Shown piece by piece: positions 5,857-25,879 of a stretch of 25,879 nucleotides of DNA. Each line of letters opens with the position of its first letter. Position 1 is the stretch's first letter. Below the pieces are notes generated by a model. The model saw nothing but the letters and a program-made list of their open reading frames with translations, did no database searches and was not told the DNA's origin. Location of the stretch: the NCBI GenBank assembly GCA_001412365.1, contig LKUE01000201.1:1-25879 (forward strand), given 5' to 3'. The translations under genes were made by a program, and so were the position numbers. This DNA comes from Desulfuromonas sp. SDB. GTDB taxonomy: Bacteria; SDB-A.

Positions 5857-7753
5857 TTACATTCAATGACTTCCACCGGGTTATTATTTTATTATATATA
5901 CTGTGTTCATCTAATCCTATAAATTGCAGCAATTCATCAGTAGAACCGTGTTGGACAAACTGGTCAGGTATTCCGAAAGATTGAAAGGGAACTAAGATAT
6001 CCTGCTCCAACATGGATTTAGCAATGAATGATGAAATTCCATTTATTACTGATCCTTCTTCCAGGGTTACCACTAATTTTGCCTGTTTTGCCAGTCCCCA
6101 AATAGCTGGATCCAAAGGTTTTACAAACCTCAAATTTACTACAGTGACCCCGATATTATCATCCCGGGTAATTTTCTTTTGAAGCTCCAAGGCGGTATGA
6201 ACCATATTACCCACTGCCATCAGCACTATTTCACTGCCTTTTTTTAACATCTCCGCTTTTCCCAGACTGATCTTGGGGGAAAATTTACTTTTTAAACTGT
6301 AGTTAATTTTACCCCGGGGGTATCGAACCACCGTAGGTTGATTTAAATTAAAGGACAATTTGATCATCTCTGTTAACTCCCCGTAGTCGGCAGGAGCCAT
6401 TATTACCAGATTAGGTATTGCCAAAAGATAGGAGATATCAAAGCAGCCATGATGAGTGGGACCATCCTCACCTACTATTCCCGCTCTGTCCAGAAAAAAT
6501 GAAACCGGCAGTTCCTGCAGGGCGATATCATGGATTACCTGGTCATAAGCTCGTTGGAGAAAAGTAGAATATATTGCCACTGCCGGTTTCAAACCCTGGG
6601 TAGCCAAACCACCGGCAAGAGTTACCGCATGACCCTCAGCAATTCCTACATCAATAAACCGGTGGGGAAACTTCTGGGCAAAACGATCCAACCCGGTTCC
6701 TAAAGGCATGGCTGCAGTTATCGCTACAATTTCCTGATCATTTTCCGCAACTTCAACCAGAGTTTGAGAAAACACTTCAGTCCAGGATAAGTTGGTTGCT
6801 TTCTTTTTATTATCCCCAGATTCAACTTTAAACGGTCCTATTCCGTGGAAGGTTTCCGGATCTTTTTCCGCATGTTCATATCCTCTGCCCTTTTGAGTTA
6901 GTACATGTACTACTTTAGGTCCCCGGATACGCTGGACTCCTTTAAAAATATCTACCAGTTCCCTCACATCATGCCCATTCACCGGACCAATATATCTAAA
7001 ACCCAATTCTTCAAAAAGGATGGTGGGCACCAGAAAGTTTTTTACTCCTTCTTCAAGTCTTCTGGACACATCCCTGGCTCTTTTACTTAAAAAGGAAGGC
7101 AGTAATCCCAATAATTCCCATACATCTTCCCTTAACCGGTTGTAAACAGGAGCAGTTACCAATTTATTCAGATAATTTGAGATCATTCCAACATTTTCAC
7201 TTATGGACATTCCATTATCATTTATTACTACAGTCATATTGGCGTGCTTGGCGCTAACCTGGTTCAATCCTTCCCAGCTCAACCCCCCAGTTAATGCTCC
7301 ATCTCCTACTATAGCCACAATTTCCTTTTTCTGTCCCTTGAGGTCTCTGCCCAGAGACATCCCCAGAGAAGCAGATATGGCAGTAGAAGCATGACCAACC
7401 CCGTAAGCATCATATTCACTTTCCGACCTTTTGGGAAATCCGCTCAATCCCTGGTATTTTCTTATGGTGTCAAATCTCTGTTTCCGCGAAGTTAATATTT
7501 TATAGGCATAGGCTTGATGTCCTACATCCCATACAATTAAATCTTCGGGAGGGTTGTATGTTTTAAGCAAGGCAAGGGTCAGTTCAATAGAGCCCAGGTT
7601 GGAGGCTAAGTGCCCCCCGTTTTTAGATACCACTTCAATAATCACATCTCTCAGCTCCTGAGCCAGATGTTTAAGGTCATTAACCGATAAATTTTTCAGG
7701 TCCCGGGGGTTTTCAATTTCAGATAACAGTTTGTAATTTTTCCAATCTATCAT
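5846..7753 (-). CDS. dxs: 1-deoxy-D-xylulose-5-phosphate synthase
   Basis: DXS condenses pyruvate with glyceraldehyde-3-phosphate using thiamine diphosphate, the first and often rate-limiting step of the MEP isoprenoid pathway. Family marks are the N-terminal block with GGHLASNLG, the thiamine site GDGALTGG (150-157 from the chosen start) with VINDN about 20 residues later, the conserved histidines of GHQAY and VGHAST, and the C-terminal transketolase half with DRAGIVGEDGPTHHG. A TTG lies four codons upstream, but the ATG at 7753 fits better: it forms a TAATG overlap with the preceding stop and sits six bases after GGAG. The resulting 635 residues match the family length. ispA and a polyprenyl-phosphatase-like gene lie just upstream, making an isoprenoid cluster. 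Confidence 0.97.
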   Translation of the reverse strand: MIDWKNYKLLSEIENPRDLKNLSVNDLKHLAQELRDVIIEVVSKNGGHLASNLGSIELTLALLKTYNPPEDLIVWDVGHQAYAYKILTSRKQRFDTIRKYQGLSGFPKRSESEYDAYGVGHASTAISASLGMSLGRDLKGQKKEIVAIVGDGALTGGLSWEGLNQVSAKHANMTVVINDNGMSISENVGMISNYLNKLVTAPVYNRLREDVWELLGLLPSFLSKRARDVSRRLEEGVKNFLVPTILFEELGFRYIGPVNGHDVRELVDIFKGVQRIRGPKVVHVLTQKGRGYEHAEKDPETFHGIGPFKVESGDNKKKATNLSWTEVFSQTLVEVAENDQEIVAITAAMPLGTGLDRFAQKFPHRFIDVGIAEGHAVTLAGGLATQGLKPAVAIYSTFLQRAYDQVIHDIALQELPVSFFLDRAGIVGEDGPTHHGCFDISYLLAIPNLVIMAPADYGELTEMIKLSFNLNQPTVVRYPRGKINYSLKSKFSPKISLGKAEMLKKGSEIVLMAVGNMVHTALELQKKITRDDNIGVTVVNLRFVKPLDPAIWGLAKQAKLVVTLEEGSVINGISSFIAKSMLEQDILVPFQSFGIPDQFVQHGSTDELLQFIGLDEHSIYNKIITRWKSLNVNEP

Positions 7754-8223
7754 TATATTCTCCAAAATATTATGGCCAAAAGAGCTCCGATAATTGCACC
7801 TACAAAAACTTCAAAAGGGGTATGTCCAATTAATTCTCTGAACCTTCCAGATTTTGGATGGCCGGTTATTTCAAATTCTTCGATGATGATATTGAGCAAA
7901 GTTGCCTGTTTTCCCACCGCCCTTCTCACTCCTGCCGCATCGTAAATAACAATTAATCCGAAAAATAAAGCAATGCCAAAAAAGGGACTTTTAAATCCGA
8001 ACCAAAAACCGGTGAGTAAAAATAAAGTGGTTACTGAAGCGGAATGAGATGAAGGCATCCCTCCCGGTTCAGTTATACGCTGTAGATTTTTCCCCAAACT
8101 GAATTGCCGGTTTTTTTTAAAATCCTGAATTGTGCCAACAACCACCTTCATCGCCTGCACCGCCGCACCGGTGAACAAAGTAACTAAAGCCAAAGATATT
8201 CCGTTTCTGGGTATGGTCATCAT
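7753..8223 (-). CDS. Divergent PAP2-family (DUF212) membrane phosphatase-like protein
   Basis: A 156-residue integral membrane protein of the divergent PAP2 group. It keeps the PSSHS signature (57-61), a basic GVRRAVGKQA segment (98-107) in place of the usual second PAP2 motif, and GHTPFEV (133-139) with the likely catalytic histidine, amid three to four hydrophobic helices. PAP2 enzymes remove phosphate from lipid phosphates or diphosphates. The position between ispA and dxs makes a prenyl-diphosphate substrate an attractive guess, but only a guess. It starts at ATG 8223, overlapping the ispA stop as ATGA; a second ATG follows directly and could be used instead. Confidence 0.88.
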   Translation of the reverse strand: MMTIPRNGISLALVTLFTGAAVQAMKVVVGTIQDFKKNRQFSLGKNLQRITEPGGMPSSHSASVTTLFLLTGFWFGFKSPFFGIALFFGLIVIYDAAGVRRAVGKQATLLNIIIEEFEITGHPKSGRFRELIGHTPFEVFVGAIIGALLAIIFWRI

Positions 8224-9101
8224 TTGTTCCTGGTTAAGATGTACTGGGCAATTTCAATAATCCGGCTTGAATTCACAGATAATTGACTGAAACAGGTAAT
8301 TGCTTTTTGAGCGTACTTCTCCGCCATTATTTTCGCAGATTCGATACCGTAAATTCCGGGATAGGTAAGCTTGTTCTCATCCTGATCTTTATGCAGTTTT
8401 TTCCCCACCACATTTTCATCTCCCAATTCATCCAGCAGATCATCAACAATCTGAAATTCCATTCCTAAATAAATACCGCCCTGGGTTAGCTTTTTTAACT
8501 CATTTTCCCCGGCATCAGCAATTATTGCTCCACAAACCAAACTTGCCGATATCAACGCGGCAGTTTTCCTGCTGTGTATATATCTCAATATTTTGTATTC
8601 ATTCACCGACCATTGATGCCAGTGCATATCCGCCACCTGCCCTCCAATCATTCCATCAGTTCCTACTGCCCTCCCCAATACTTTAATTATCAGAGGAACT
8701 TTATCCGCAGGAAGATGATCCGATATCAGTTGCCAAGCATAGGTACAAAGAGCATCTCCCGCTAAAATAGCTAGGTCTTCTCCGAATTTTTTATGAGATG
8801 TCAGTTGTCCTCTTCTGAGGTCATCATCATCCATAGCCGGTAAATCATCGTGAATCAAGCTGTAGGCGTGCAGCATTTCAATGGCAGAAGCTACTGCCAA
8901 AGCATGCTGCTGGTTGCCTGAATAAATCCGGCTGGCTTCCACCACCAGAGTAGCTCTTAATCTTTTCCCCCCGGCTAATGTTGAATATCTCATAGCTTGA
9001 TGAATTACCGGAGGAAATGATTTTTCAGGGGGAAGATATTTATCTATCCATTTTTCCACCAGTTGTTTGTTATATTTCAGGAAAGAATTAAGTGATTCCA
9101 C
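8220..9101 (-). CDS. ispA: Polyprenyl (farnesyl/geranylgeranyl) diphosphate synthase
   Basis: This trans-prenyltransferase adds isopentenyl diphosphate to allylic diphosphates in the cytoplasm, supplying C15-C20 precursors for quinones and undecaprenyl phosphate. Residues seen: GGKRLR (44-49) for IPP binding, the first Asp-rich motif DDLPAMD (85-91) with the two-residue insertion typical of bacterial FPP/GGPP synthases, and the second motif DDLLD (220-224). Length (293) is standard. The start is GTG at 9101, sharing its G with the xseB stop (TAGTG). Chain length cannot be fixed from these residues. Placement after xseB and before dxs is a common bacterial arrangement. Confidence 0.95.
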   Translation of the reverse strand: MESLNSFLKYNKQLVEKWIDKYLPPEKSFPPVIHQAMRYSTLAGGKRLRATLVVEASRIYSGNQQHALAVASAIEMLHAYSLIHDDLPAMDDDDLRRGQLTSHKKFGEDLAILAGDALCTYAWQLISDHLPADKVPLIIKVLGRAVGTDGMIGGQVADMHWHQWSVNEYKILRYIHSRKTAALISASLVCGAIIADAGENELKKLTQGGIYLGMEFQIVDDLLDELGDENVVGKKLHKDQDENKLTYPGIYGIESAKIMAEKYAQKAITCFSQLSVNSSRIIEIAQYILTRNK

Positions 9102-9310
9102 TATTTAAATTTCTCCAGCTGACCTTCTTCAGTAATTTTATTGATCTTCACCTCTGCTTCAGTTAAAAATTTCTCAGCAATTCTGAGTAACTTCATCCCC
9201 TGCTCATAAAATTTTATGGTTTGATCAAGTTTAAGATCAGGATCCTCTAGTTTTTCAACAATCTGGTTCAGCTGATCCATTACTTCTTCAAAATTAAGCT
9301 GTTTTTCCAT
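9101..9310 (-). CDS. xseB: Exodeoxyribonuclease VII small subunit
   Basis: XseB is the short helical subunit that binds the XseA large subunit, forming exonuclease VII, which degrades single-stranded DNA from both ends into oligonucleotides. The 69-residue product shows the family pattern: N-terminal NFEEVMDQLNQIVEKLED, then LDQTIKFYEQGMKLLR and a charged helical tail. The ATG at 9310 follows folC by 24 bp. Its usual partner xseA is not beside it; the neighbour on that side is folC. The large subunit must be encoded elsewhere for XseB to act. Confidence 0.93.
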   Translation of the reverse strand: MEKQLNFEEVMDQLNQIVEKLEDPDLKLDQTIKFYEQGMKLLRIAEKFLTEAEVKINKITEEGQLEKFK

Positions 9311-9334
9311 AAAATAACAGTTATCACTAAACCA

Positions 9335-10591
9335 TCATTTAGTCAACTTCTTAAGCAATTCCCCCGCCCAGTGAAAACTTCCCACTGCCAGGCAATCTTC
9401 TGAAGTTTCAAAGAACTGGGTAACTGCCTGGGAAAGTGGCAGTATTTTACAATTTTCAGAGTCCAATAATCCCGTAAAGTCATGGGGATTAAAACATCTT
9501 TTATTTTGAAATTTCGTGAATATGTACCTTGTGGTTATGGGGCGGAGAGTTTCCAGCATACTCATAATATTTTTATCTTTCATTGCTGCAAAGTAAAGGT
9601 TAACTTTTCGATGAGGATAATAATTTTTAAAAGTTTCCACCACTGATCTTACCGCCGGTTGATTGTGACTGCCGTCTACTATCTTCAGGGGATGTTTACT
9701 GACTATCTGAAATCTTGCAGGTAGTTGCAGTTTTTCCAATCCTTTTAAACCCCGGGGGACATCAATATTCATCACTTCACTGATTTTTTCTAAAGCTTCT
9801 GCCACCAGCTGCAGATTATGTTGCTGATAAATTCCCCAAACCGGCAGCTGATAGGTTTTAGTGTTATCATCAACATATTGATATAAATGCCCACAATCGC
9901 ACTGTTTAAAATTTCTGATTTTATCGGGTTCGGTGAATATCAACTGAGAGACTGACTTTAACCGGGCTCTGATCTTGAACAAATTTTCCAGTGACGGCTG
10001 GGGATTGGTTATTACCACAGTCCCTTCGTTTAAACCTCCCAGCTTATCCAGGGCGATATCTACTACCGTGTTGCCCAGAAGATTTTGATGATCTAATCCC
10101 AGGGAGGTTACCAGGGTTAAATTTGCCGGTAATATTCTGGTGGCATCATAGCTGCCTCCTAAACCGGCTTCGGCAATTAGCACATCCGCTTGAGTAAGCT
10201 GAGTATATAGCAATGACATCAAAAATATCACCGTAAAGTAGGTTTTAGTTTGATAATTAAGAAGTTGGGGATAGAGCTGGGAAAAAACGTACTGAACTTG
10301 ATCCTCAGAAATATTCTGATTGTTTAATTGTATTCTCTCCCTCCAGTTGACCAGATGAGGAGAACTAAAGCATACTACTTTTAATCCGCAGGCTGTTAAG
10401 GCAGTGGATAACATCGCCGCAGTGGATCCTTTGCCGTTGGTCCCCAGTATCTTAACTGTATAGGGCAAGGTCAGTTTAAGCGATTTGAACTGCTGGTTAA
10501 GTTCATCAATTTCTCCGTCTAATATACGCAAGGGTTTTATTTCCCGGTTAGCTAAACCCCGGAGATAGTTTTCAATTTCAGAAATATTCAC
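9335..10591 (-). CDS. folC: Folylpolyglutamate synthase / dihydrofolate synthase family protein
   Basis: FolC is a Mur-ligase-type ATPase that adds glutamate to dihydropteroate and/or tetrahydrofolate. It has the P-loop GTNGKGST (50-57), the metal/folate loop as EAGLGGSYDAT, where most family members have GLGGRLDATN, the conserved LDHQNLLG histidine, and a lysine in the position of the carbamylated lysine (DIALDKLGG). A Mur-ligase C-terminal domain follows with VDGSHNQPA. At 418 residues it has the normal length. The Arg-to-Ser change and general divergence mean the exact reaction (one or both activities) is uncertain. The start is GTG at 10591, overlapping the previous stop (GTGA). Confidence 0.9.
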   Translation of the reverse strand: MNISEIENYLRGLANREIKPLRILDGEIDELNQQFKSLKLTLPYTVKILGTNGKGSTAAMLSTALTACGLKVVCFSSPHLVNWRERIQLNNQNISEDQVQYVFSQLYPQLLNYQTKTYFTVIFLMSLLYTQLTQADVLIAEAGLGGSYDATRILPANLTLVTSLGLDHQNLLGNTVVDIALDKLGGLNEGTVVITNPQPSLENLFKIRARLKSVSQLIFTEPDKIRNFKQCDCGHLYQYVDDNTKTYQLPVWGIYQQHNLQLVAEALEKISEVMNIDVPRGLKGLEKLQLPARFQIVSKHPLKIVDGSHNQPAVRSVVETFKNYYPHRKVNLYFAAMKDKNIMSMLETLRPITTRYIFTKFQNKRCFNPHDFTGLLDSENCKILPLSQAVTQFFETSEDCLAVGSFHWAGELLKKLTK

Positions 10592-11508
10592 TGCCCTTCG
10601 ACCAGCTGCCCTGCTTGAACAATTTCCACTCCTTGATCAGTGGCAATCCACAACTGCCCCAGCGAAGGTATGTACTCGAAATCATTAATCAAGGGAAAAA
10701 TTCGGCTTAATCCCAGCCAACTTACAATACCCTGTGCCGACAAAATCTGTAGTCCTCCTCCTTTTCTCAAACCATTTATCTTGCAATATGTTCCCAGCAG
10801 CAGCAAATCATCAAGGGGGTAAAGTGCAGAAATCCCGTTGAATACCAAACCGCTGTTTCTTCCCATGCGGAAAGATTCCCATTCACTGTCAAAAAGCCAC
10901 AATCCTCCTGGAGAATAGTCGGAATAATCATCTTCCATCCCTATCCAAAACCAGCCACTGTCTCTGACCAGATCGGTTACCGGGAGATACTGGGCAGAAT
11001 TGCACTCAGTGTAAAAAGCGGAATGATGAAAAACAGCAAGATCTGTGGAAAACCATAAACCCCGGTCAGTGCCCAGCCACAGGGTATCTTCTCCCAGCAG
11101 TACCGAAGTGGCAAAAGCAGTAGGAATAAAGGTAAATCTTCCCCGGGCGTATTTAATCAGTCCATATAAATTGGAAAATATATAACTGCCTTTAAAATAA
11201 GCAATATCGGTAATCCAGCGGTGGTAATAATCTCCGGGAATATACTTGTCAATTAAATTGAAATCCTCATCCAGAATGACAATACCGTTATAGGTGCCTA
11301 CCAGTATAAACTGATCTCTGCAGTAAACTGCGGATATATATTTGCAGGGCAGGTGTTCATCCGGTATTTTATTTAACTCCATATTTACCGGATCGCAGTA
11401 ATACAAACCCTGACCCTGAGTGCCCATATAAACACAGCTCCGGTGGTATTCCAACTCATTTACGGTTACTCCGGATAAAATTGATATTATTATTAAAACT
11501 AAAATCAT
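10588..11508 (-). CDS. Exported beta-propeller-like protein of unknown function
   Basis: A 306-residue protein with a hydrophobic N-terminus (MILVLIIISILSG) that looks like a signal peptide or anchor, with no lipobox cysteine. The rest has repeated blade-like motifs in which a strand with Trp/Leu-hydrophobic-Gly precedes Thr/Asp-Gly: LWLGTDRGLWF, FWIGMEDD, LLLGTYCKINGL, LWIATDQGVEIV. These resemble the short repeats of regulator-propeller (Reg_prop) domains, but no kinase or other output domain is attached. It sits between mutS and folC with 4-bp overlaps on both sides, so it is a real translated gene. Role unknown; the genomic context gives no hint. Confidence 0.78.
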   Translation of the reverse strand: MILVLIIISILSGVTVNELEYHRSCVYMGTQGQGLYYCDPVNMELNKIPDEHLPCKYISAVYCRDQFILVGTYNGIVILDEDFNLIDKYIPGDYYHRWITDIAYFKGSYIFSNLYGLIKYARGRFTFIPTAFATSVLLGEDTLWLGTDRGLWFSTDLAVFHHSAFYTECNSAQYLPVTDLVRDSGWFWIGMEDDYSDYSPGGLWLFDSEWESFRMGRNSGLVFNGISALYPLDDLLLLGTYCKINGLRKGGGLQILSAQGIVSWLGLSRIFPLINDFEYIPSLGQLWIATDQGVEIVQAGQLVEGQ

Positions 11509-15785: not shown

Positions 15786-18689
15786 TTAAACCTCACTCGC
15801 CTCAACCACAATCTTAAAATCAACTTGCAGTTCTTTAAAATGCCTCTTGGCGCAACGTATTTTATCGGCTTCAAAATTTCTTAACTTTTCAAAATCCTTA
15901 ATCCCTTTTGTTTCTCTTACGAGATAAAGCGTATCATCTCCATGCTTAACAATCGCCCAATCCGGGTTATATGCACCTATCGGAGTATCAACCTTAAACC
16001 ACGAAGGAAGCTTCACGAATAATTTAATATCTTCGCGCACGTCTAAATTCTCCGCAAAACGCTTTTCAATCTCAGAGTCATATTCAATGGCGTCATAGAC
16101 TGATTTTTTAACTTCAACAAGATTATTCAGATAGCTTATAATTTCTGTTTCTTCAAACAAACGCATTTCATATTCTTGACCGGCAATCTTCTCATATTTA
16201 ATGCCGTCTATGATCAATTTATGCAATTCTCGCTTTATCAAGCGAACTACCGAATCCATAAACCTTTGAGGATTTAAAGCAAATTCTTCCATCCTGCCGG
16301 AATTTATCAATATTCGCACAAGAGTATTTCTTGTCAACTCTGTTTCTTTCTGCAAATACGCTAAGATATCAGGGAGATTTAGTTTTTCTTCACCATAGGA
16401 AGCAAGTGTTTCCTGTACTCTTAGCTCTTTCGTGCCAATACCCTTTTCTTTAATATCCACTTCTGCTTTTTTGTATAAAATTTTCACTTTCTCTATCCGC
16501 TCCATTCCTCTAATCGCCTTTGAAGCATTTTCAATCAAAACTTCGGTATCATATTCCACCGAATATGTCGTTTTCGGTTTTATCTTATCCCATAAAATCT
16601 TAAACTCATCGTCAAGATAGACTTGTTTATTTATTTGAAGCGTTTTTCGATTATTTTTGTTAACAACCCTCTCAGAAAACAAATAACTCTGGACAACATC
16701 AATAACCTGATGTTTAACATCTTCAAACTCTGGACTAAGTTCAACCTCAAAATATTTATCCGAAGGATCAAATTTTGGCTGAATCTGGCCGTCGTTATTA
16801 ATATGGCCTTGCTCTTTTAACTCATTCCAAATCTTTTCTGACTTCTCTGCACCGATAGTTTTTTCTTCCCCATCTACAACCTGAGCGATTCTAGCAAAAG
16901 CGGCTTTACTTACAACCCCAAAGCGGATATTAAAATCTTCCTCAATTTCTGTTTGTAGTTTTTTCGCAAAATCATCATAGCTTTCATTGGCAATCACCGT
17001 AAGCCGGTTTATCGTTTCATCAAAAATACGCTCTCCGTCCTGTCTGACCGGCAACCTAAGCCCTCGGCCTATTTCCTGCCTTTTCTTCATCTCCGATTTT
17101 GTTTCATTAAGTGTGCATATCTGAAAGACATTAGGGTTATCCCATCCCTCACGCAGAGCAGAATGGCTAAAGATAAACCGCAACGGCTCATCTAGGGATA
17201 ACAATTGCTCTTTATTTTTCATGATCTTATTGTAAACATCTTCATCGGCTTGAGTATCACCTGAGGTGTCTTTTAGAATCCCTTTTTTATCAGCGGCAAA
17301 ATAGCCGTCATGGAGCTTTTCAATCGGGAATTTAAGCAAATCTTTATACCGAGGCTTTTGAATTAACTCTTTGAAATATTCTTCAAACCACAGAGCAATT
17401 TTACCCTTTACCGAATTGACCTGTTCATCATAAGAACGATAATTAGCTACCCTATCAATAAAAAACAAGGAAAGAACCTTAATCCCTTTATCCTTAACTT
17501 TTAATTCCTTTTCCAAATGCTCCTGAATAGCATTTTTGATCTGCACCTTCATAATATCATCTGTTAAGCCACCCTGCGTTTGCCCCACGATTAAAGTTTT
17601 ACCATTGGTAAAGGAAATAAACTCATTCCCCGGCTCTGCGCTGATTTCATCAATAATGTAACCATTTTTATAGTTTTCACGCTCATTAGACCGTGTAAAC
17701 AAATCATCCTTGTGCTTTACAGTTATATTTTTAAGTTTTGGACCAGTTGGTGAATCAACATGAATTGCTAATTTAGCCTTAATCCCGTTTCGGTTATCAA
17801 CAGACTTAAACTGAATAAACGGCTCGTTAAAATATTCGCCGCTTAAAACAGATGCAACCTCAATCCGTTTTACCAAGCGCATATCGTAAGCTTTGATGGG
17901 ATCAAGCTTGTATAATAAATTATATGGATTTCTGTGTGTAGCGGAATATCGCATTGTGCAAAGCGGATTCAATGTTTCAATTGCTTCTTTCGCCTTAGGT
18001 GTATTATCAACGCTCTGAGGCTCATCTATAATAACAATGGGATTAGTTGCCTGAATAAATTCTATAGGCTTTCTGCCAGATAGTTTATCGCTTTCCCGAT
18101 GTATGATATTACTTTTCTTTTCCTCGTCCTTATCCTCCAGAGTTTTCCTGAAAGCATCTATATTTATAACCATAATCTGAATCTGATTACTTGTCGCGAA
18201 TTGGCGCACCTGATTGACCTTTTTGGAATCGTACACAAAATAATCATAAGAAACATTATTATAAAGATGCAGAAAATGCTCTTTTGTAATATCAAGGTTT
18301 TTCAATACGCCTTCTCTAATAGCAATGCTTGGAACAACAATTACATATTTCTTAAACCCGTATTTTTTATTGAGTTCAAAAATAGTGCGAAGATACACAT
18401 AGGTTTTACCGGTCCCGGTTTCCATCTCAATAGAAAAATGCTTGCCTTGCAATGTTGGAATTCGTTCAATCCCGTTATTCTCTTGCACTAACCGCACGTT
18501 TTCCAATAAAGCCGGTTCATCCAAAACAAGCCTATTGCCAACGCCAAGTTCAGTTTGAAAAATCCAGTCTTGCCGTTTAAAACCTATTTCAAGATCTCCC
18601 TCAGATAAAGGCTGACCGTCAAACACATCGGTCATAGCATTAACTGCATCAATCTGAAACTGTAAATTAGAGTCAAATTTTAACTTCAT
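15786..18689 (-). CDS. res: Type III restriction enzyme Res subunit (helicase-nuclease)
   Basis: Res hydrolyses ATP to communicate along DNA and cuts about 25-27 bp from an unmethylated recognition site when bound to Mod. Superfamily 2 helicase motifs are in order: Walker A ETGTGKT (90-96), motif II as DEPQ (222-225), SAT (249-251), motif V ALREGWDNPNV (511-521) and motif VI QEIGRGLRLPV (538-548). The C-terminal PD-(D/E)xK nuclease is intact as PD (909-910) and ETK (926-928). Length (967) is normal. No clear Shine-Dalgarno precedes its ATG; a short frame overlaps its start (18673-18738), so translation might be coupled. Unusually, it is separated from mod by DUF3800 and a 287-bp gap with opposite-strand signals, so it can be controlled apart from the methylase. 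No frameshift is present. Confidence 0.95.
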   Translation of the reverse strand: MKLKFDSNLQFQIDAVNAMTDVFDGQPLSEGDLEIGFKRQDWIFQTELGVGNRLVLDEPALLENVRLVQENNGIERIPTLQGKHFSIEMETGTGKTYVYLRTIFELNKKYGFKKYVIVVPSIAIREGVLKNLDITKEHFLHLYNNVSYDYFVYDSKKVNQVRQFATSNQIQIMVINIDAFRKTLEDKDEEKKSNIIHRESDKLSGRKPIEFIQATNPIVIIDEPQSVDNTPKAKEAIETLNPLCTMRYSATHRNPYNLLYKLDPIKAYDMRLVKRIEVASVLSGEYFNEPFIQFKSVDNRNGIKAKLAIHVDSPTGPKLKNITVKHKDDLFTRSNERENYKNGYIIDEISAEPGNEFISFTNGKTLIVGQTQGGLTDDIMKVQIKNAIQEHLEKELKVKDKGIKVLSLFFIDRVANYRSYDEQVNSVKGKIALWFEEYFKELIQKPRYKDLLKFPIEKLHDGYFAADKKGILKDTSGDTQADEDVYNKIMKNKEQLLSLDEPLRFIFSHSALREGWDNPNVFQICTLNETKSEMKKRQEIGRGLRLPVRQDGERIFDETINRLTVIANESYDDFAKKLQTEIEEDFNIRFGVVSKAAFARIAQVVDGEEKTIGAEKSEKIWNELKEQGHINNDGQIQPKFDPSDKYFEVELSPEFEDVKHQVIDVVQSYLFSERVVNKNNRKTLQINKQVYLDDEFKILWDKIKPKTTYSVEYDTEVLIENASKAIRGMERIEKVKILYKKAEVDIKEKGIGTKELRVQETLASYGEEKLNLPDILAYLQKETELTRNTLVRILINSGRMEEFALNPQRFMDSVVRLIKRELHKLIIDGIKYEKIAGQEYEMRLFEETEIISYLNNLVEVKKSVYDAIEYDSEIEKRFAENLDVREDIKLFVKLPSWFKVDTPIGAYNPDWAIVKHGDDTLYLVRETKGIKDFEKLRNFEADKIRCAKRHFKELQVDFKIVVEASEV

Positions 18690-18738
18690 AGCTTCGCCGT
18701 TCAGCTGCTTCGCTGATTACACAGATTATTTTTAACAT
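18673..18738 (-). other. Possible 21-codon leader ORF overlapping the res start
   Basis: On the minus strand an ATG at 18738 opens a 21-codon frame (MLKIICVISEAAERRS...) that ends at a TGA (18675-18673) inside codons 5-6 of res. The frame is open for a further 25 or so codons upstream without ATG. Because res itself lacks a good Shine-Dalgarno, termination here could feed ribosomes to the res ATG. The ORF's own ribosome site is weak, and the segment lies partly under a plus-strand promoter, so the open frame may be accidental. Confidence 0.25.
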
Positions 18739-18760
18739 TCGTCCATACCCAAGATATACT
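18732..18760 (+). promoter_or_regulatory. Promoter for opposite-strand small RNA
   Basis: TTAACA (18732-18737), a 17-bp spacer and TATACT (18755-18760) match the sigma-70 hexamers at five of six positions each. It points away from res, towards the structured region and terminator at 18795-18893, and predicts a start near 18767. Confidence 0.6.
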
Positions 18761-18766
18761 GTTTTC

Positions 18767-18893
18767 AGCTCATCTGCCACGCGTAGAAAGAGTAACCGGG
18801 ATGTAAACAAGCATCCCCTGCATTAGTCAAAAAGGACTGGGGATTCCCGGTCGACAGGCAATTCTGATTACTCGGAATTGCCTGTTTTTTTTT
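18767..18893 (+). ncRNA. Predicted structured small RNA, antisense to the res leader
   Basis: About 127 nt between a consensus-like promoter and a strong terminator, on the strand opposite to all island genes. The core folds as one nested hairpin: 18795-18801 (ACCGGGA) pairs with 18845-18851 (TCCCGGT), 18813-18818 (ATCCCC) with 18839-18844 (GGGGAT), and 18825-18828 (AGTC) with 18835-18838 (GACT). The 3' side is continuous for 17 bases, while the 5' side carries bulges of 11 and 6 bases. A mutually exclusive hairpin (18798-18803 with 18812-18817, both six bases) is also possible. Bases 18781-18860 are 41/80 G+C, clearly higher than the flanking genes. I do not recognise a known RNA family. If the island operon is transcribed through into res, this RNA is antisense to that mRNA. 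Confidence 0.55.
18854..18893 (+). terminator. Strong Rho-independent terminator, plus strand
   Basis: An uninterrupted 11-bp stem pairs 18854-18864 (ACAGGCAATTC) with 18875-18885, with a ten-base loop, followed by nine Ts (18885-18893). The T run is only on the plus strand; in the minus direction the stem is preceded, not followed, by the A/T run, so it should not stop island-gene transcription. Confidence 0.85.
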
Positions 18894-18903
18894 AATAATC
18901 TCC

Positions 18904-18932
18904 TTGACTTATACCGCTCCTTGAGGTATACT
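18904..18932 (+). promoter_or_regulatory. Second opposite-strand promoter with an embedded operator-like dyad
   Basis: TTGACT (18904-18909), a 17-bp spacer and TATACT (18927-18932) form a near-consensus promoter on the plus strand. Between and overlapping the boxes is an inverted repeat, TATACC (18910-18915) and GGTATA (18925-18930), nine bases apart, positioned where a repressor would block RNA polymerase. The same region is a direct repeat: CTCCTTGA occurs twice with a 17-bp period. The predicted transcript would start near 18939 and run into the 3' end of the DUF3800 gene as antisense. Two small hairpins (18943-18953, 18960-18970) and a T-rich run (18974-18983) follow and might end it early. 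Confidence 0.45.
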
Positions 18933-18976
18933 TAAAATGAACCACTGAAAGTGTGAATGCACCGTAGGTGGTGTTT

Positions 18977-19765
18977 TTATTTTGGGGAAACCACAATTCC
19001 ATATTCATTATCCCCGCTTGCCTGCAAATTGAAAGAGTCTTTCATCGTGTCTAACAAATTCTTAACTTTCACTATATCAAAACTAGCTGGCATCCTGCTT
19101 GGGAAGTCCTTTCCCAAAATCTCTTTTATTCCATACAAATAAACAAGATACGAGACCAAATCAGCAAGTTGTATAAAATACGACTCCCTTGATTCTTTCG
19201 GCAATGGGTCTTCAATTAAAGATTTTATTTCCTGACGGTAACTCTCCGGATTGAATTTTGACGGTATAAAATTGATACGCTGAATCTTTCGCGTTGTCTT
19301 CCGCATCTTTCCTTCTCTTCCAGGATCTGTAATTATCAAAAATCTTTTCGAAGGGTCAATTTTTTTCAAATCATTCTCAATTCGCTGAACAGAATAGGTT
19401 AATGCTTTGTCTAACACGGAGTACTTAGGCACAGTTACTTTTTTCTTGTTAATCAGAATATTGATGATTTTTATATCAAGTTCAGCAACCAATTTACAGT
19501 ATAGATCCGTAATTAAAATCCGGTCATACTCTGACAAATTAAATGCCCTGTAAGGTTTTTTGTTTAAAAGGAAATACTTTGTGTGCAGTTCTGTCTTAAC
19601 GGGAAAATTAAAATCAGCTTTAAGTTGACGTCTAAAATCTTGTATGTGTTTATATGCCTGTTTCCAATCCAGATAGTGAGTATAAACAGCCGTCAGCACA
19701 AAAATCGGTGACGAATACGCGGGATAACCGTCGTCTCCTGTTTCATCGTAATATGCGATATACAT
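18977..19765 (-). CDS. DUF3800 domain protein, predicted RNase-H-fold nuclease
   Basis: DUF3800 proteins are predicted metal-dependent nucleases of the RNase H fold that are often found in defence islands; their biochemical role is mostly unknown. The acidic residues expected for the fold are all visible: YYDETGDD at the N-terminus (D7, E8), TELH (E59, H61), IITDPGREG (D147) and IQLADLVSYL (D202). The 262-residue length is typical. The ATG at 19765 lies 9 bp after mod, with an AGGG Shine-Dalgarno overlapping the mod stop, so it belongs to the same operon. Its insertion between mod and res suggests an accessory role in the restriction system. Whether it acts on DNA or RNA cannot be told. Confidence 0.85.
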   Translation of the reverse strand: MYIAYYDETGDDGYPAYSSPIFVLTAVYTHYLDWKQAYKHIQDFRRQLKADFNFPVKTELHTKYFLLNKKPYRAFNLSEYDRILITDLYCKLVAELDIKIINILINKKKVTVPKYSVLDKALTYSVQRIENDLKKIDPSKRFLIITDPGREGKMRKTTRKIQRINFIPSKFNPESYRQEIKSLIEDPLPKESRESYFIQLADLVSYLVYLYGIKEILGKDFPSRMPASFDIVKVKNLLDTMKDSFNLQASGDNEYGIVVSPK

Positions 19766-19774
19766 AATTTTTCC

Positions 19775-21667
19775 CTAAACTGTCCTAAAATCATCAACTC
19801 CCTTTGATTTCATAATCTGCACAGCGTTGGTTTTAAGCTGGTCATTATTGACAAAACCCTGATCTAAACATATAACTCTGCTCGGCTGTTTTTCTGCCAT
19901 TGCCTTAATTACTTCTTTTGTTAGCTCTTTCTCAAGGCATACAAGCATAGCGCCGTCTTCTATGGAATACACGGTCTTGCCAGCTAATTCGATCTTCTCA
20001 ATCTTTGTTGTTAATTCAAACCCGGCTTTAAGTAGAATTTCAAACAAAATGTCTTCTTGCGTAGCTTTTGGATCAATGTGGTCAATATATAATTCCAATT
20101 GCTTTTCAAGCGCTTTTTTATCGCTAGATAATTTTTCAGCATCCCAGATTTTAAAGTTTGACTTGTCGAGCTTAAAAACCTTAAAACCTAAGTTTAACTG
20201 TTTATCTTTGAACAAAGTTTCGCCTTTTTCTTTTTCAATACTTTTGATTACTCTGCGAATACGTTCTTTGCCAATGTCAGCAATAGTTTTAAAGCCGGCT
20301 TTATAAGCGGCTGTATCTTCACTACAGTATTCTGGCAATTGGACGCATATATATTTTCTATCGCCCTTATCCTTTGAATTTAAATCGATTATAGCGTGTG
20401 CAGTAGCATTAGAGCCTGCAAAAAAATCTAAAATGATATCGTTTGAATCAGGATTAGTCGCAACGTTAAGTAGATTCTGAATAAGTCCAATGGGCTTTGG
20501 ATAAGGGAAAATTTGTATATCACCAAAAATCTTTATAATTTCATTAGTTCCATGCTGAGTATAAACATCTTCAATAATAGAAAAAGCCTTTCCCATTCTA
20601 ATATTTCCATCTTCATCCTTAAGATATTGTTTCGTATGTACAGTCCAGCCATCTTTGCTTTTCACAAATTCAAGTTCATTATTCTTTAAAGCACTTTCTA
20701 CGCGTTCTTTACTCCAATACCATTGTCGTTTAGGCATAATTCTGGAACCATCAGGAGCCTGTATGGGAAAAACTAAATTTTTCCTCTCACCAACTGCTTT
20801 CCCTGCTTCTAAAGGGTGTGTTCTATAAGGACCTCTAACTTTGTAATTCTCATCTTTATTTTTGTAATATTTATTAACGGAATCTTCGCTATAAGGAACA
20901 AAAAGTTGCCCAATAGCATCAACATTTTTTGCATAAAACATAATATATTCGTGAAGAGTAACTAAATGTTTTTCTTTTGCCCCACCACCATATCGTTTTT
21001 TCCAAATAATACAATCAATAAAATTTTCTTCACCAAATATCTCATCACATATTTTTCGTAAATTAGACACCTCATTATCATCGACACTTATAAAGATAAA
21101 TCCATCATCACAAAGTAAATTCTTCGCCAAAAATAGCCTCGGATACATCATGTTCATCCACTTGCTATGAAAGCGCCCCTCTGTATCCGTATTTGTCGAA
21201 AACTTCTTGCCTGCCGCGTCAACCTGACCTGTGTATTGCAAATATGTTGTTAAATTCTCTGTATAATCATCTGGGTAGATAAAATCATTGCCGGTGTTAT
21301 AAGGCGGATCGATATAAATCATCTTAATTTTGCCATAATATGATTTCTGCAAAAGCTTTAACACCTCAAGATTATCGCCTTCGATAAAGAGATTTTCCGT
21401 GTTGTCAAAATTCACTGATTCTTCAGGACAGGGTTTTAATGTACCGATACTGGGATTTTGAATAATCCTAAAACAATCAGCTTTTCCCGGCCAATTCATG
21501 CCATAACGTTCTTTACCGGCTTCGATACTCTCACCCAAAGTCAGCTTTAACTTTTTAAAGTCAATCTTATCTTCGGTAAATATTTCCGGAAATAATTGGC
21601 GCAATTTTTCTTTTTGCTCTTTAGTTATATCCATTGAACGTAAATCGAGTTTTTCTGGTTCGCTCAT
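19775..21667 (-). CDS. mod: Type III restriction-modification N6-adenine methyltransferase (Mod)
   Basis: Mod provides sequence recognition and methylates one strand of a short asymmetric site at adenine N6; it also directs Res. The beta-class order is seen: catalytic motif IV DPPYNTG (DPPY at 120-123) before SAM-binding motif I DFFAGSNATAHA (414-425). The region between (about 210-400) is the variable target-recognition part. Length is 630, at the usual type III size, with intact motifs. The ATG at 21667 has an AGGGGG Shine-Dalgarno six bases upstream and lies 10 bp after the helicase gene. No simple-sequence repeats typical of phase-variable mod genes were seen. Confidence 0.96.
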   Translation of the reverse strand: MSEPEKLDLRSMDITKEQKEKLRQLFPEIFTEDKIDFKKLKLTLGESIEAGKERYGMNWPGKADCFRIIQNPSIGTLKPCPEESVNFDNTENLFIEGDNLEVLKLLQKSYYGKIKMIYIDPPYNTGNDFIYPDDYTENLTTYLQYTGQVDAAGKKFSTNTDTEGRFHSKWMNMMYPRLFLAKNLLCDDGFIFISVDDNEVSNLRKICDEIFGEENFIDCIIWKKRYGGGAKEKHLVTLHEYIMFYAKNVDAIGQLFVPYSEDSVNKYYKNKDENYKVRGPYRTHPLEAGKAVGERKNLVFPIQAPDGSRIMPKRQWYWSKERVESALKNNELEFVKSKDGWTVHTKQYLKDEDGNIRMGKAFSIIEDVYTQHGTNEIIKIFGDIQIFPYPKPIGLIQNLLNVATNPDSNDIILDFFAGSNATAHAIIDLNSKDKGDRKYICVQLPEYCSEDTAAYKAGFKTIADIGKERIRRVIKSIEKEKGETLFKDKQLNLGFKVFKLDKSNFKIWDAEKLSSDKKALEKQLELYIDHIDPKATQEDILFEILLKAGFELTTKIEKIELAGKTVYSIEDGAMLVCLEKELTKEVIKAMAEKQPSRVICLDQGFVNNDQLKTNAVQIMKSKGVDDFRTV

Positions 21668-21677
21668 TTTATACCCC

Positions 21678-24548
21678 CTATACTACTTCCCATTTTATCG
21701 TAAATAGTTCCTGTTCGCTAACCTTTTGGCCCAATTGTTTCTCAACATCATCTATTAAAGATTCTTTTCTCTTATCTACTTCGCGGCAGGCATCATCTAA
21801 TTCTTTCCACAACGCCTCACGTTTCGATTCAATACCTTTTATCTGCTTTTGAATCTTAACTTTTTCTGGCAAGTTCGGCGCAGTGCGTGCTTGCCTTCTC
21901 AATTCTTTAATATTTTCATCAATATCTTTTATATTCTCTCGGAGCGTCTTTTTCTTATCCTGCGCCCATTTATCAAGTTTATCCATTTCTTCATCAAAAA
22001 ACGTACTGTTACGCACGTCAATATTCTTCAATATTTCTCCACGCTGATTGTTGAGCAATTCTTGAGTTTTAGCCGTATCTACTTCGCTATTACCGGGAAT
22101 AACTTTCGCGTCTAAAGAAAAAAGGCGATAAGATTGCTCCGGGCTTAAAGAATTTCCCTCATTATCGGCACCAGCTAAGATAAGATAATCCTCATCTGAA
22201 ATAGATTCAATGGTCAAAGCGTAAGCTGATAAAAATCCCGATTTCCCCACTAATTCCTCAAGAATTGTGATTTTCTTACTGCTATTGCAATAATCAAATT
22301 GCAAATAAGCTTTTGTTAATTCTTTTGATTTTGCCATAGCAAAAACTTTTTGCGCTATGGGATGGCCTATACGATAAAGATGCGCGTCTTCAACATTTTT
22401 GGCCATCCTGTAAGGGCCAAGTGAAATATCCGGGATGTCTTCAAAGCATTTCGACTTCAACATAAAAGAATACGAATCACTTGAAAAATCAGCATGATCT
22501 TTAAGGTAATATTTGGTCAAATCCCACAAAAGAACCTCATATTTACTTAAATAATCCCGGCTTTCGACAAGGTTTACTCTCAGCTTCTCATGCACTTCCT
22601 CGTCAAAATGTTCAAGAAGGTTTTGCCGTGTAGAAGCCATTCTGTCGGCAATCTTTTCCTCTAATTCTTTTTGCAACTCATCAAAGTATTGCTGTATGTC
22701 TTCAGGTGTCCGGCATTGCTGATATATAGTGGCTATGCGTTTTTCAAAATCAACTCCTGATTCAATCGCTCCCAACACGTCATCGCTTGCGCCAAATACA
22801 CCGCTAAAAAGTTTAAATTTCTCATCTAACAATTGATATATCCTCTGATCCGCCGCGTTGGTTTTATTCAAAAAATTAACAACCACGACATCATATTTTT
22901 GTCCATAACGATGACAGCGGCCTATACGCTGTTCTATCCTCTGCGGATTCCAAGGTAAATCATAGTTAATCACCAATGAACAAAACTGCAAATTTATTCC
23001 TTCCGCCCCGGATTCAGTAGCAATCATTATTGAGGCGTGATTTTTAAAATAATCGACCAAGGCCGCGCGTGTATCCGCACTCTTTGAGCCGGTAATCACA
23101 TCAGTGCCTTTATGTTTTTCAAGCCACTGTTTATATATTGATTTTGCCAAATCATCATTGTTTGTACCGTTAAACATAACGATTTTATCTTTATATTCTG
23201 TCTGGGAAAGTAAATTAAACAAATAGTCCTGTGTTCTGCGGGATTCTGTAAAAATCAAGGCTTTTTCATCAGCACCAAACTTTTCAGCCTGTTTAAAGCC
23301 CATCTTTAAGGCTTTCATCATCTCATTACCTTTGGCGTTATGAGTTATTGATTCAGCCAAATCACGGAAGCTTTCTAAATCTTTGATTTCCGCCTTTATT
23401 TCCTCTATCTGCTCCTGAGTTATTGTATCGCTTTCTTCTTCTTGTCCGTTTTCTTCATTCCATTCATCTTTGGTAGCGTCTAATCCCTCATAATCCGCAG
23501 AGAGAGATTCACTTATTTCTTCTTTCCGTGCCTTTTCTGCCTCTTTAACAAAAATCTGCAAGCGGTTAATCAACGAATGTAGTGTTTTAGCAATCGCGAA
23601 CGTTGAAGAAGCTAGTAGCTTACGAAGAATAAGAGTTATTAATTGCCGTTGGCTTGAAGGCAAGGCGTATAAATGGTCTCGCTGTAAATATTCTGAAACA
23701 AGATCGTATAATTTTTGTTCTTCCGGGGTAGGAATAAATTCCTGAACCAAAGCCATCCTATTCGTATAATTTATATATTCTGTAACTTGCCGCCGCAAGG
23801 TACGCTTACAAACCGGTACAAGACGAGTTCGCAAATCAGCGTATAATTGCTCATCATTCAAATATACAAACTGGCTTTTAAAACTTTTCACATCGCCAAA
23901 AACGTAATCGTCAATAAAACTCACCAAACCGTAAAGCTCTAACAAGGAATTTTGCAATGGGGTTGCAGTCAGTAACAGTTTAGGCGCATTAGAGACAGAT
24001 TCCTTTATACTGCGGGCGATTTTATTTGACTTTTTATAGACATTGCGCAAACGGTGCGCTTCATCTAAAACTACTAAATCCCATTTAACTAATCTCAAAT
24101 ATTCTTCTTTACTGCGTGCGAAATGATAAGAACAAATAACAGCAATATCCTTTTGATCAAAAGGATTCGATACCCCCCGCTTCACAAAATCATTAAAAGT
24201 TTTACTCTCCAATATAAGCGAAGGAACAAAAAACTTATCTAAAAGCTCTTGATTCCATTGTTTTCGTAAGGATGAGGGAACAATAATAAGTATTTTGCGC
24301 CGTCTTTCAGCCCAACGCTGAGACAACACAAGACCGGCTTCAATAGTCTTACCTAAACCGACCTCATCGGCTAAAAGGACACCTTTTGAAAAAGGCGATC
24401 GAAAAGCAAACAAAGCTGCATCAACCTGATGAGGATTCAAATCAACTTGTGCGTCCGCTAAAGTAGATGTAATTTTTTCAATGCTATCCGGTGGACACCG
24501 CTTGCTTAATTCCCATGCGAAATATTTAGCGTGATAATCAGTAATCAT
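21678..24548 (-). CDS. SNF2/RapA-like helicase of a defence operon
   Basis: A DNA translocase-type ATPase. Motifs in order: Walker A DEVGLGKT (61-68), DEAH (162-165), TATP (194-197), the second RecA lobe with ALIFTESRRTQDYL (430-443), motif V TESGAEGINLQF (511-522) and motif VI QRIGRCHRYGQ (540-550). Between the lobes is a strongly acidic, charged insertion (about 335-395, including EENGQEEESD). The last 110 residues or so form a long predicted coiled coil. At 956 residues it resembles SNF2 helicases that accompany methylases in defence systems, such as DISARM DrmD, but the DUF1998 and other DISARM genes are not present here. It starts at ATG 24548, 23 bp after the ATPase gene, and is followed by mod. 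It probably moves on DNA for the restriction system. Confidence 0.9.
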   Translation of the reverse strand: MITDYHAKYFAWELSKRCPPDSIEKITSTLADAQVDLNPHQVDAALFAFRSPFSKGVLLADEVGLGKTIEAGLVLSQRWAERRRKILIIVPSSLRKQWNQELLDKFFVPSLILESKTFNDFVKRGVSNPFDQKDIAVICSYHFARSKEEYLRLVKWDLVVLDEAHRLRNVYKKSNKIARSIKESVSNAPKLLLTATPLQNSLLELYGLVSFIDDYVFGDVKSFKSQFVYLNDEQLYADLRTRLVPVCKRTLRRQVTEYINYTNRMALVQEFIPTPEEQKLYDLVSEYLQRDHLYALPSSQRQLITLILRKLLASSTFAIAKTLHSLINRLQIFVKEAEKARKEEISESLSADYEGLDATKDEWNEENGQEEESDTITQEQIEEIKAEIKDLESFRDLAESITHNAKGNEMMKALKMGFKQAEKFGADEKALIFTESRRTQDYLFNLLSQTEYKDKIVMFNGTNNDDLAKSIYKQWLEKHKGTDVITGSKSADTRAALVDYFKNHASIMIATESGAEGINLQFCSLVINYDLPWNPQRIEQRIGRCHRYGQKYDVVVVNFLNKTNAADQRIYQLLDEKFKLFSGVFGASDDVLGAIESGVDFEKRIATIYQQCRTPEDIQQYFDELQKELEEKIADRMASTRQNLLEHFDEEVHEKLRVNLVESRDYLSKYEVLLWDLTKYYLKDHADFSSDSYSFMLKSKCFEDIPDISLGPYRMAKNVEDAHLYRIGHPIAQKVFAMAKSKELTKAYLQFDYCNSSKKITILEELVGKSGFLSAYALTIESISDEDYLILAGADNEGNSLSPEQSYRLFSLDAKVIPGNSEVDTAKTQELLNNQRGEILKNIDVRNSTFFDEEMDKLDKWAQDKKKTLRENIKDIDENIKELRRQARTAPNLPEKVKIQKQIKGIESKREALWKELDDACREVDKRKESLIDDVEKQLGQKVSEQELFTIKWEVV

Positions 24549-24571
24549 AGATAAATTCAGCCTTCAATAGT

Positions 24572-25879
24572 TTAAAAACCTCCTACCAATTCCAATGCCC
24601 TTCTGGAATAACTTTGTAATTCCATATCATCAATTAGCTCTTTTTCATAAGCAGGATTAGTATCGTGATGGTATCTTTTTGAATAATCATTCACAGCATC
24701 TAATTCATCTAAAATTGGTTGAGCAGAAACAAGAGGACTGCCACTTTGAGCTTTGCGTATTTTCCCGATAAAATCACCGAGCCATTCCGTCTCAGAAAAA
24801 TGACCAGGGAAAATAAATCGGATATATTGCTCTAATAAAGGTCGAATTGTACGAGCTACATTTACCCTATCTCCAGAGCCGTTATAACAATATTCACTCA
24901 AAAGGGAATGATTTCGATGATATTCCTCTCTCGTCTCCTTCACAATATCCCACTCAGTAATTGTTGAGTTTTGCCCTAGTCTAGAAAGCTGAAGCGGCTT
25001 AGTTTCAGTTTTATTCGAGCTATCCCAAATAATCTTAAGAAAATTTGGATCATGCGACATAACGATAACCTGCTTGGCTTTTTGAGTTAGTTTACAGATT
25101 ATTTGTTTCGTACATGTACGGCGTGATCTATCTAAACTGGAAAAGGGGTCATCTAAAACAATGATCTTCTCTGAGAGTTTAGAATCAGTTTCTAATTTAG
25201 CAATAAAAAAAGCAAGCGCTAATGTGCTTTTGTCACCTGCGCTGAGCGTATTCCTAAAAGATGGAATAGCCCAAGATGAAGAAGTATCGCCAAGATCCAC
25301 CGAAACATTATTAATTTTAATTTGATAATGCGAACTCGCAGTGCCTCCAAGATAACTCCTTTTTGTTTCGGTGATTCTAAAACCTGCACCAAAGTTTTCT
25401 AAAAGCTTGTTTATTTTTGCTTCATAATTTGTAAAAATATTTTCGGTGTAAGTATCGAGATCAGATTTTACCTGATTTTTTTTCTGCTCTAAGGTTCTTT
25501 TGGAATCGCATGCCTTAGAATAAGCTTCGCACAACTCTTTTGCATCCTGCTCAAAGCGACGTTTCCTTGCTTTAAGCATAACAATATCATTTCTTACTAT
25601 CGCCACATCGGCAGATTTTATTTCGTTTTTTCTTATATCAATTTGTTTATTGATTTCACTCACAGAATGATTATACGCATCAACGCTTTGCTTAATACCT
25701 TCAACTGCTTTTTGTGCCTGCCAGAAATCGTCGCTAAGTTTAATATTTTCCAATGGTGATTGCTGTTTCTTTGAAATGTACTCCTGCGTTACAATTGACA
25801 GAGCTTTTAACAAATCAATTATATAAGAAATATCGACGCTCGGATTACCTAACTTGACATATTGTTTCCAATAATCACA
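24572..25879 (-). CDS. RecF/SMC-like AAA_13 ATPase, C-terminal part (5' end outside window)
   Basis: The frame is open to the window edge, 22 codons beyond the TTG at 25813, so that TTG is not the start; the Walker A must lie outside. Visible parts: a coiled-coil stretch (roughly 25750-25430), the ABC signature LSAGDKS (25246-25226), Walker B IIVLDDP (25165-25145) with D-loop SSLD, and the switch histidine in MSHD (about 25060-25049). A helical C-terminal domain follows with RPLLEQ (24844-24827) and KRYHH (HH at 24670-24665). This layout matches the AAA_13 group, which includes PrrC and RloC, the ATPases that carry anticodon-nuclease activity; the spacing of an R-x3-E pair is like theirs, but no zinc-hook CxxC is visible. 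It is the first known gene of the island operon here. Confidence 0.87.
   Translation of the reverse strand, partial: CDYWKQYVKLGNPSVDISYIIDLLKALSIVTQEYISKKQQSPLENIKLSDDFWQAQKAVEGIKQSVDAYNHSVSEINKQIDIRKNEIKSADVAIVRNDIVMLKARKRRFEQDAKELCEAYSKACDSKRTLEQKKNQVKSDLDTYTENIFTNYEAKINKLLENFGAGFRITETKRSYLGGTASSHYQIKINNVSVDLGDTSSSWAIPSFRNTLSAGDKSTLALAFFIAKLETDSKLSEKIIVLDDPFSSLDRSRRTCTKQIICKLTQKAKQVIVMSHDPNFLKIIWDSSNKTETKPLQLSRLGQNSTITEWDIVKETREEYHRNHSLLSEYCYNGSGDRVNVARTIRPLLEQYIRFIFPGHFSETEWLGDFIGKIRKAQSGSPLVSAQPILDELDAVNDYSKRYHHDTNPAYEKELIDDMELQSYSRRALELVGGF

Follow-up and report, generated by a model that had tools for sequence, protein, structure and literature searches.

What does a small-RNA unit do on the strand opposite to a type III restriction operon? 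In the window analyzed here, a 25,879-nt stretch of a Desulfuromonas sp. SDB contig, the genes for the type III restriction subunit Res (15786–18689) and the type III modification methylase Mod (19775–21667) lie on the minus strand with a DUF3800 gene between them. The plus strand between res and this DUF3800 gene had been read, in a first sequence-only reading, as a complete small-RNA gene antisense to the leader of res. The same island contains, beside mod and res, a DrmD-like SNF2 helicase and an AAA protein resembling PADLOC PDC-S06 (21678–25813).

A structured RNA with its own promoter and terminator

Sequence and folding analysis of positions 18732–18893 (plus strand) revealed a promoter, a structured RNA and a terminator, in this order. 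The promoter (TTAACA-17-TATACT, 18732–18760) has 10 of 12 matches, and its −10 hexamer ends 8 nt before the core hairpin, the same gap as in most bacterial homologues. The promoter position and the terminator predict a transcript of about 127 nt (18767–18893), referred to here as RNA A, whose putative 5′ end was placed accordingly. It would begin with a core hairpin (CUCAUCUGCCACGCGUAGAAAGAG, 18769–18792) made of an outer stem CUC/GAG and an inner stem UCUGC/GUAGA, to which pattern matches, a match to the family model R1 and compensatory changes in homologues all point. A second hairpin, H2 (GGGAUGUAAACAAGCAUCCC, 18798–18817), corresponds to the covarying hairpin of the family, and is followed by an extra hairpin, H3 (GACUGGG-GAUU-CCCGGUC, 18835–18852), predicted from the fold. 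The lack of the U tail after H2 and the addition of H3, found in this copy only, make the window copy atypical. The intrinsic terminator (18853–18893), detected by both folding and signal scan, consists of a 15-pair stem and nine Ts. Promoter and nine-T terminator are therefore present at the place and on the strand proposed before.

The plus strand had a folding energy of −53.5 kcal/mol compared to −34.7 for shuffled sequences (z −5.2). In the minimum-energy fold the hairpins stand separately (core 18768–18793, H2 18798–18817, H3 18835–18852, and the terminator), and the R1 model likewise gives separate hairpins, so that the nested form described in the first reading, whose 3′ strand runs over 17 bases, is an alternative fold only. 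The window contains one promoter followed by such a terminator at 60–180 nt, and the same arrangement turned up in 3 of 200 windows randomized by a first-order Markov model. As this composite alone amounts to p ~0.015, the main support for RNA A, which is strong, is the comparative one provided by the R1 match described below. Together, these signals and that match support the existence of a complete opposite-strand small-RNA unit.

A mobile structured repeat, which had also been considered, was rejected for this genome, where the element is present in single copy. DNA searches with the whole 169-bp element gave no further full copy, with nothing in plasmids, the core alone in phages, and just short pieces in 98 genomes. 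The match of the terminator hairpin to itself on the opposite strand corresponds only to its palindrome.

RNA A belongs to a family present in many phyla

Several weak DNA matches converged on 30 bases of the window (18767–18796), some of them in noncoding gaps of phages (SPbeta-like phages of Bacillus and a Vibrio phage). The core search pattern, CTCATCTGCCANGNGTAGANNGAG, was detected in 82 viral contigs and, with one G replaced by R, in at least 118 loci of GTDB species genomes spread over many phyla. A blastn search with the core also matched E. coli, both P1-like plasmids and chromosomes. The family comparison, based on 187 distinct copies, showed that a hairpin of two stems, CUCAUCUGCCAnGnGUAGAnnGAG, is near-invariant and is followed by a covarying hairpin and, in most cases, by U's.

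The model R1 was built from a 60-sequence alignment from which the window was left out. It matched positions 18768–18822 of the window with 49.2 bits (E 1.3e-11 for the window, 1.6e-9 for the whole genome), and this was the sole significant match in the window's genome. The window copy has both the core and H2 of the family, a sigma-70-type promoter ending at the usual 7–9 nt before the core (here 8 nt), and a convergent DUF3800 gene within 1 kb (187 nt), although of another DUF3800 subfamily. Its assignment to a small-RNA family found in many bacterial phyla is thus well supported on comparative grounds.

Covariation of the stems, suggested earlier as a check on the RNA, was indeed observed. 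H2 covaries strongly in the 60-sequence alignment, and double changes were found in 9 of 9 H2 pairs and in two core pairs, with 180 double-change cells compared to 41 in shuffles, counts that lean towards structure as the alignment was fitted to the model. Because the search pattern had fixed the core, its covariation was assayed on pattern-free R1 matches, in which two core pairs had changed on both sides, from C-G to G-C, and a third was variable on one side. One such double change occurs in L245, which came from the diverse-genome search and is again a neighbor of PDC-M04, the system described in the next section.

No Rfam model reached its cut-off on RNA A, either in the window or in the other loci scanned, and RNA A is a family without an Rfam model. 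The Rfam DUF3800 motifs (among them DUF3800-I RF02969, VI RF02915, VII RF02967, VIII RF03075 and IX RF02968) are also structured RNAs linked to DUF3800 genes, and VII and VIII lie near RNA A in some phages. However, neither the window nor RNA A in the other scanned loci reached their gathering score, and none of them matched, at E up to 10, three copies of RNA A and one copy of RNA B (see below). The original published DUF3800 motifs outside Rfam, or other work, may already include RNA A.

In most GTDB loci RNA A lies beside the candidate defense system PDC-M04

PDC-M04 is a PADLOC candidate anti-phage system, not named in any paper found by our literature search, that comprises a predicted DUF3800 nuclease (PDC-M04A) and a RelE/colicin-D-like protein of ~160 amino acids (PDC-M04B). 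One or both genes lie beside RNA A in 82 of the 118 GTDB loci listed, including loci with the partner gene only; in the other 36 PDC-M04 is absent from the stretch examined, which in some reaches a contig end. In the same 118 loci, a DUF3800 gene within 1 kb of RNA A is convergent in 65 cases and co-directional in 9, with a spacing of mostly 504–554 nt, a near-fixed distance because the partner gene PDC-M04B lies in between. When all collections were considered, nearly all of the 77 convergent loci had distances of 494–667 nt, compared to 187 nt in the window. Promoters with at least 8 of 12 matches and a −10 hexamer ending 7–9 nt before the core were found for 90% of the GTDB copies accompanied by PDC-M04. 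On P1-like E. coli plasmids, the core lies past the 3′ end of an operon of two genes, in convergent orientation to it. The first of these genes is annotated as DUF3800, and PADLOC models identified the pair as PDC-M04A (E 2e-95) and PDC-M04B (E 7e-51). As far as sequence comparison goes, these data establish family membership, covarying stems, a fixed promoter spacing and a near-fixed convergent placement beside PDC-M04A/B.

The PADLOC models matched describe two proteins and no RNA, whereas RNA A occupies a near-fixed place beside them; the window, in contrast, lacks both proteins. Its DUF3800 protein had no match among the PADLOC models at E up to 0.01, so it is not a PDC-M04A, and the 84 nt between RNA A and the DUF3800 gene contain no PDC-M04B gene. 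This protein (18977–19765, minus strand; Pfam PF12686, E 2.7e-17), whose gene is convergent with RNA A and RNA B, has a predicted RNase H2/H3-like fold and is a candidate nuclease. Its structural model (mean pLDDT 73, with low values for residues 148–191) resembles RNase H2/H3 with Z up to 9.0, the best 21 hits being all RNase HII/HIII, in agreement with the RNase H fold published for DUF3800 (PMC10910872), and the acidic residues of the family (D7, E8, E59, D147 and D202) are conserved. Searches for relatives of this protein found none in viruses and only weak ones in plasmids (29.6% identity). The model of PDC-M04B (pLDDT 96) was closest to colicin D, HigB, RelE and YafQ, a kinship that at a modest Z of about 5 is suggestive but not proof, and no solved structure was a convincing sequence relative.

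The predicted RNase H-like fold, together with the occurrence of DUF3800 with CRISPR loci and known ncRNAs (PMC10910872), could also be taken to mean that the protein uses the RNA as a cofactor or guide for cleavage instead of being inhibited by it. We consider this unlikely, as RNA A has no spacer-like variable segment other than H2, its core is invariant, many copies carry a U-rich tail after H2, and the phage-borne orphans described below suit an inhibitor better than an activator.

A second RNA adjoins the window DUF3800 gene

Absent from the first reading was a second RNA, RNA B, located at the 3′ end of the DUF3800 gene. The signal scan detected a promoter-like site, TTGACT-17-TATACT, at 18904–18932 of the plus strand, followed on the same strand by the element ACCACUGAAAGUGUGAAUGCACCGUAGGUGGU (from about 18939/18941 to 18972) and a T run that overlaps the end of the DUF3800 gene (18904–18978 in all). 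The closest relatives of the window DUF3800, those of G028 and G322 (54% and 51% identity), carry GAACCACTGAAAGTGCGAATGCAYCGTAGGTGGT, then a hairpin, directly at the 3′ ends of their genes and in convergent orientation; it is the same element as in the window, identical except for 1–2 bases. RNA B was therefore beside 3 of the 3 window-type DUF3800 genes found. Among 386 genomes it was detected in the window genome and G028 only, G322 being a third case that was found separately, and its exact pattern was not found in viral contigs. Because RNA B is kept at the 3′ ends of the two closest relatives, it probably serves as cognate RNA to the window DUF3800, and RNA A would be additional. The three other DUF3800 genes of the window genome (G000:C93, C348 and C98), which are of other types, have no RNA A or RNA B match adjoining them.

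The type III operon and the antisense question

RNA A lies opposite the sequence 79–204 nt upstream of res. The same gene order was found in a locus from a Victivallaceae MAG (L155), with PDC-M04 replacing the window DUF3800: mod (4389–6269), PDC-M04A (6280–6996), PDC-M04B (6965–7510), RNA A on the opposite strand (7519–7572) and res (7972–10851). This res (G464:C123:7972–10851) encodes a protein 51% identical to the window Res and is located just past the end of L155, no window-like Res being present within any of the RNA A locus stretches examined. Comparison of both layouts suggests that cassettes of DUF3800 and RNA have been exchanged in one type III operon gap, with RNA A kept in the window.

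The recurrence of this mod, DUF3800, RNA A and res layout, with RNA A opposite the sequence upstream of res in both cases, and the fact that the signal scan listed no minus-strand promoter-like site between RNA A and res, would fit a cis-antisense RNA that delays Res by pairing with the leader of a transcript reading through from mod and DUF3800 into res. We nevertheless regard this as very improbable. In GTDB genomes RNA A accompanies PDC-M04 and not res, and, in the loci examined, the window and L155 are the only places where it neighbors a window-like Res, so the first reading's question of whether the RNA always lies beside res is answered in the negative. Moreover, the 5′ hairpin is near-invariant, loops included, in species without res nearby, a conservation for which pairing with res cannot account. 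Antisense control of res, as originally proposed, is thus not supported as the main function, and on this comparative evidence it is not a common property of the RNA A family, although a local antisense effect may exist in the window and L155. Action in trans, offered then as a fallback, is the candidate mode of action that the comparisons best support.

A different possibility is that the window copy has no present partner, being left from a lost PDC-M04 cassette or representing a host-borne orphan of the phage type. PDC-M04 is missing in the window, the equivalent gap in L155 contains PDC-M04 and RNA A, the U tail after H2 has been lost, and orphan copies are common in phages and present in other defense neighborhoods. 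However, the intact promoter and core and the strong terminator argue against decay, and we hold this to be somewhat unlikely.

Phage and orphan copies

PDC-M04 was not found in the stretch examined for 74 of the 82 viral-contig copies. A promoter of at least 8/12 at 7–9 nt was detected in 11% of the viral orphans, compared to the 90% of the GTDB copies with PDC-M04. Tandem copies occur in SPbeta-like phages, and some phage copies sit within tRNA arrays on the same strand; a tRNA lies within 1 kb of 23% of the viral orphans, against 15% of random positions on the same contigs, a mild excess that is suggestive only. In one viral contig an abiF RNA is ~170 nt from RNA A, and several phage noncoding regions (L019, L031, L021, L024 and L087) have RNA A near DUF3800-VII, DUF3800-VIII, abiF or ROOL RNA. 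In two E. coli chromosomal loci (L104 and L105), orphan copies are next to remnants of a phage antirepressor or close to dinD, and the stretches shown contain no gene annotated as DUF3800.

As the phage copies are mostly without PDC-M04 and promoter, and as phage pseudo-ToxI is known to mimic the RNA antitoxin ToxI (PMC3475682), the comparison suggests that they could act as decoys or antitoxin mimics. The type III toxin-antitoxin ToxIN and its phage mimic are a suggested parallel for the candidate RNA A, but ToxI is a repeat RNA, unlike RNA A, and a ToxI-like neutralization by RNA A would be an analogy only.

A model for RNA A

A role in protein-binding control or as an antitoxin is more likely for RNA A than one as antisense switch of res, because the family is found beside DUF3800 and, without the nuclease, in many phages. 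We propose, with a probability of about 0.58, that RNA A is a small structured RNA transcribed on its own, that it goes with DUF3800 nuclease modules, mainly PDC-M04, and restrains the nuclease, and that the window copy is an orphan antitoxin-like RNA. RNA A would be transcribed from its own promoter and bound by the proteins of the PDC-M04 module through the invariant core hairpin, and the bound RNA might keep a nuclease inactive until infection upsets the balance, which would give the module a defense role. The model for such a mechanism is AbiF, whose ncRNA binds and neutralizes the toxic protein (PMC12373285). Like RNA A, the RNA of AbiF-RCd22 (abiF RNA, RF03085; PMC12373285) is a small hairpin RNA adjoining a nuclease defense gene, and it acts in cis and in trans by protein binding. 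AbiF differs in being a HEPN nuclease, and its RNA has another sequence and structure and lies upstream in the same transcript. Against our proposal, PDC-M04 is itself just a candidate system, and the fold similarity of PDC-M04B is modest. Further points against it are the lack of PDC-M04A and PDC-M04B in the window and of PDC-M04 in 36 of the 118 GTDB loci, the three other DUF3800 genes of the genome that have neither RNA beside them, and the atypical structure of the window copy.

In the window, the PDC-M04 genes are missing, and the same mod-res gap is taken by a different DUF3800 with RNA B. RNA A could have been kept from a PDC-M04 cassette that was replaced, or the DUF3800 now present could have co-opted it, and we call it orphan or co-opted because PDC-M04 is absent there; it may act with this DUF3800, with a PDC-M04 arriving from outside, or with no partner.

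More tentatively, PDC-M04 may be a three-part, RNA-restrained anti-phage system formed by an RNase H-like DUF3800, a RelE/colicin-D-like RNase and RNA A. Phages would then carry promoter-less RNA A as antitoxin mimics, some in tRNA arrays or beside DUF3800-VII/VIII and abiF, and the window would represent two RNA cassettes stacked in a type III restriction operon. RNA A is likely a third, RNA component for the candidate defense system PDC-M04 in many phyla, the family offers a reason for the small orphan hairpin RNAs of many phages, and the role of DUF3800-linked RNAs becomes directly testable in E. coli and B. subtilis.
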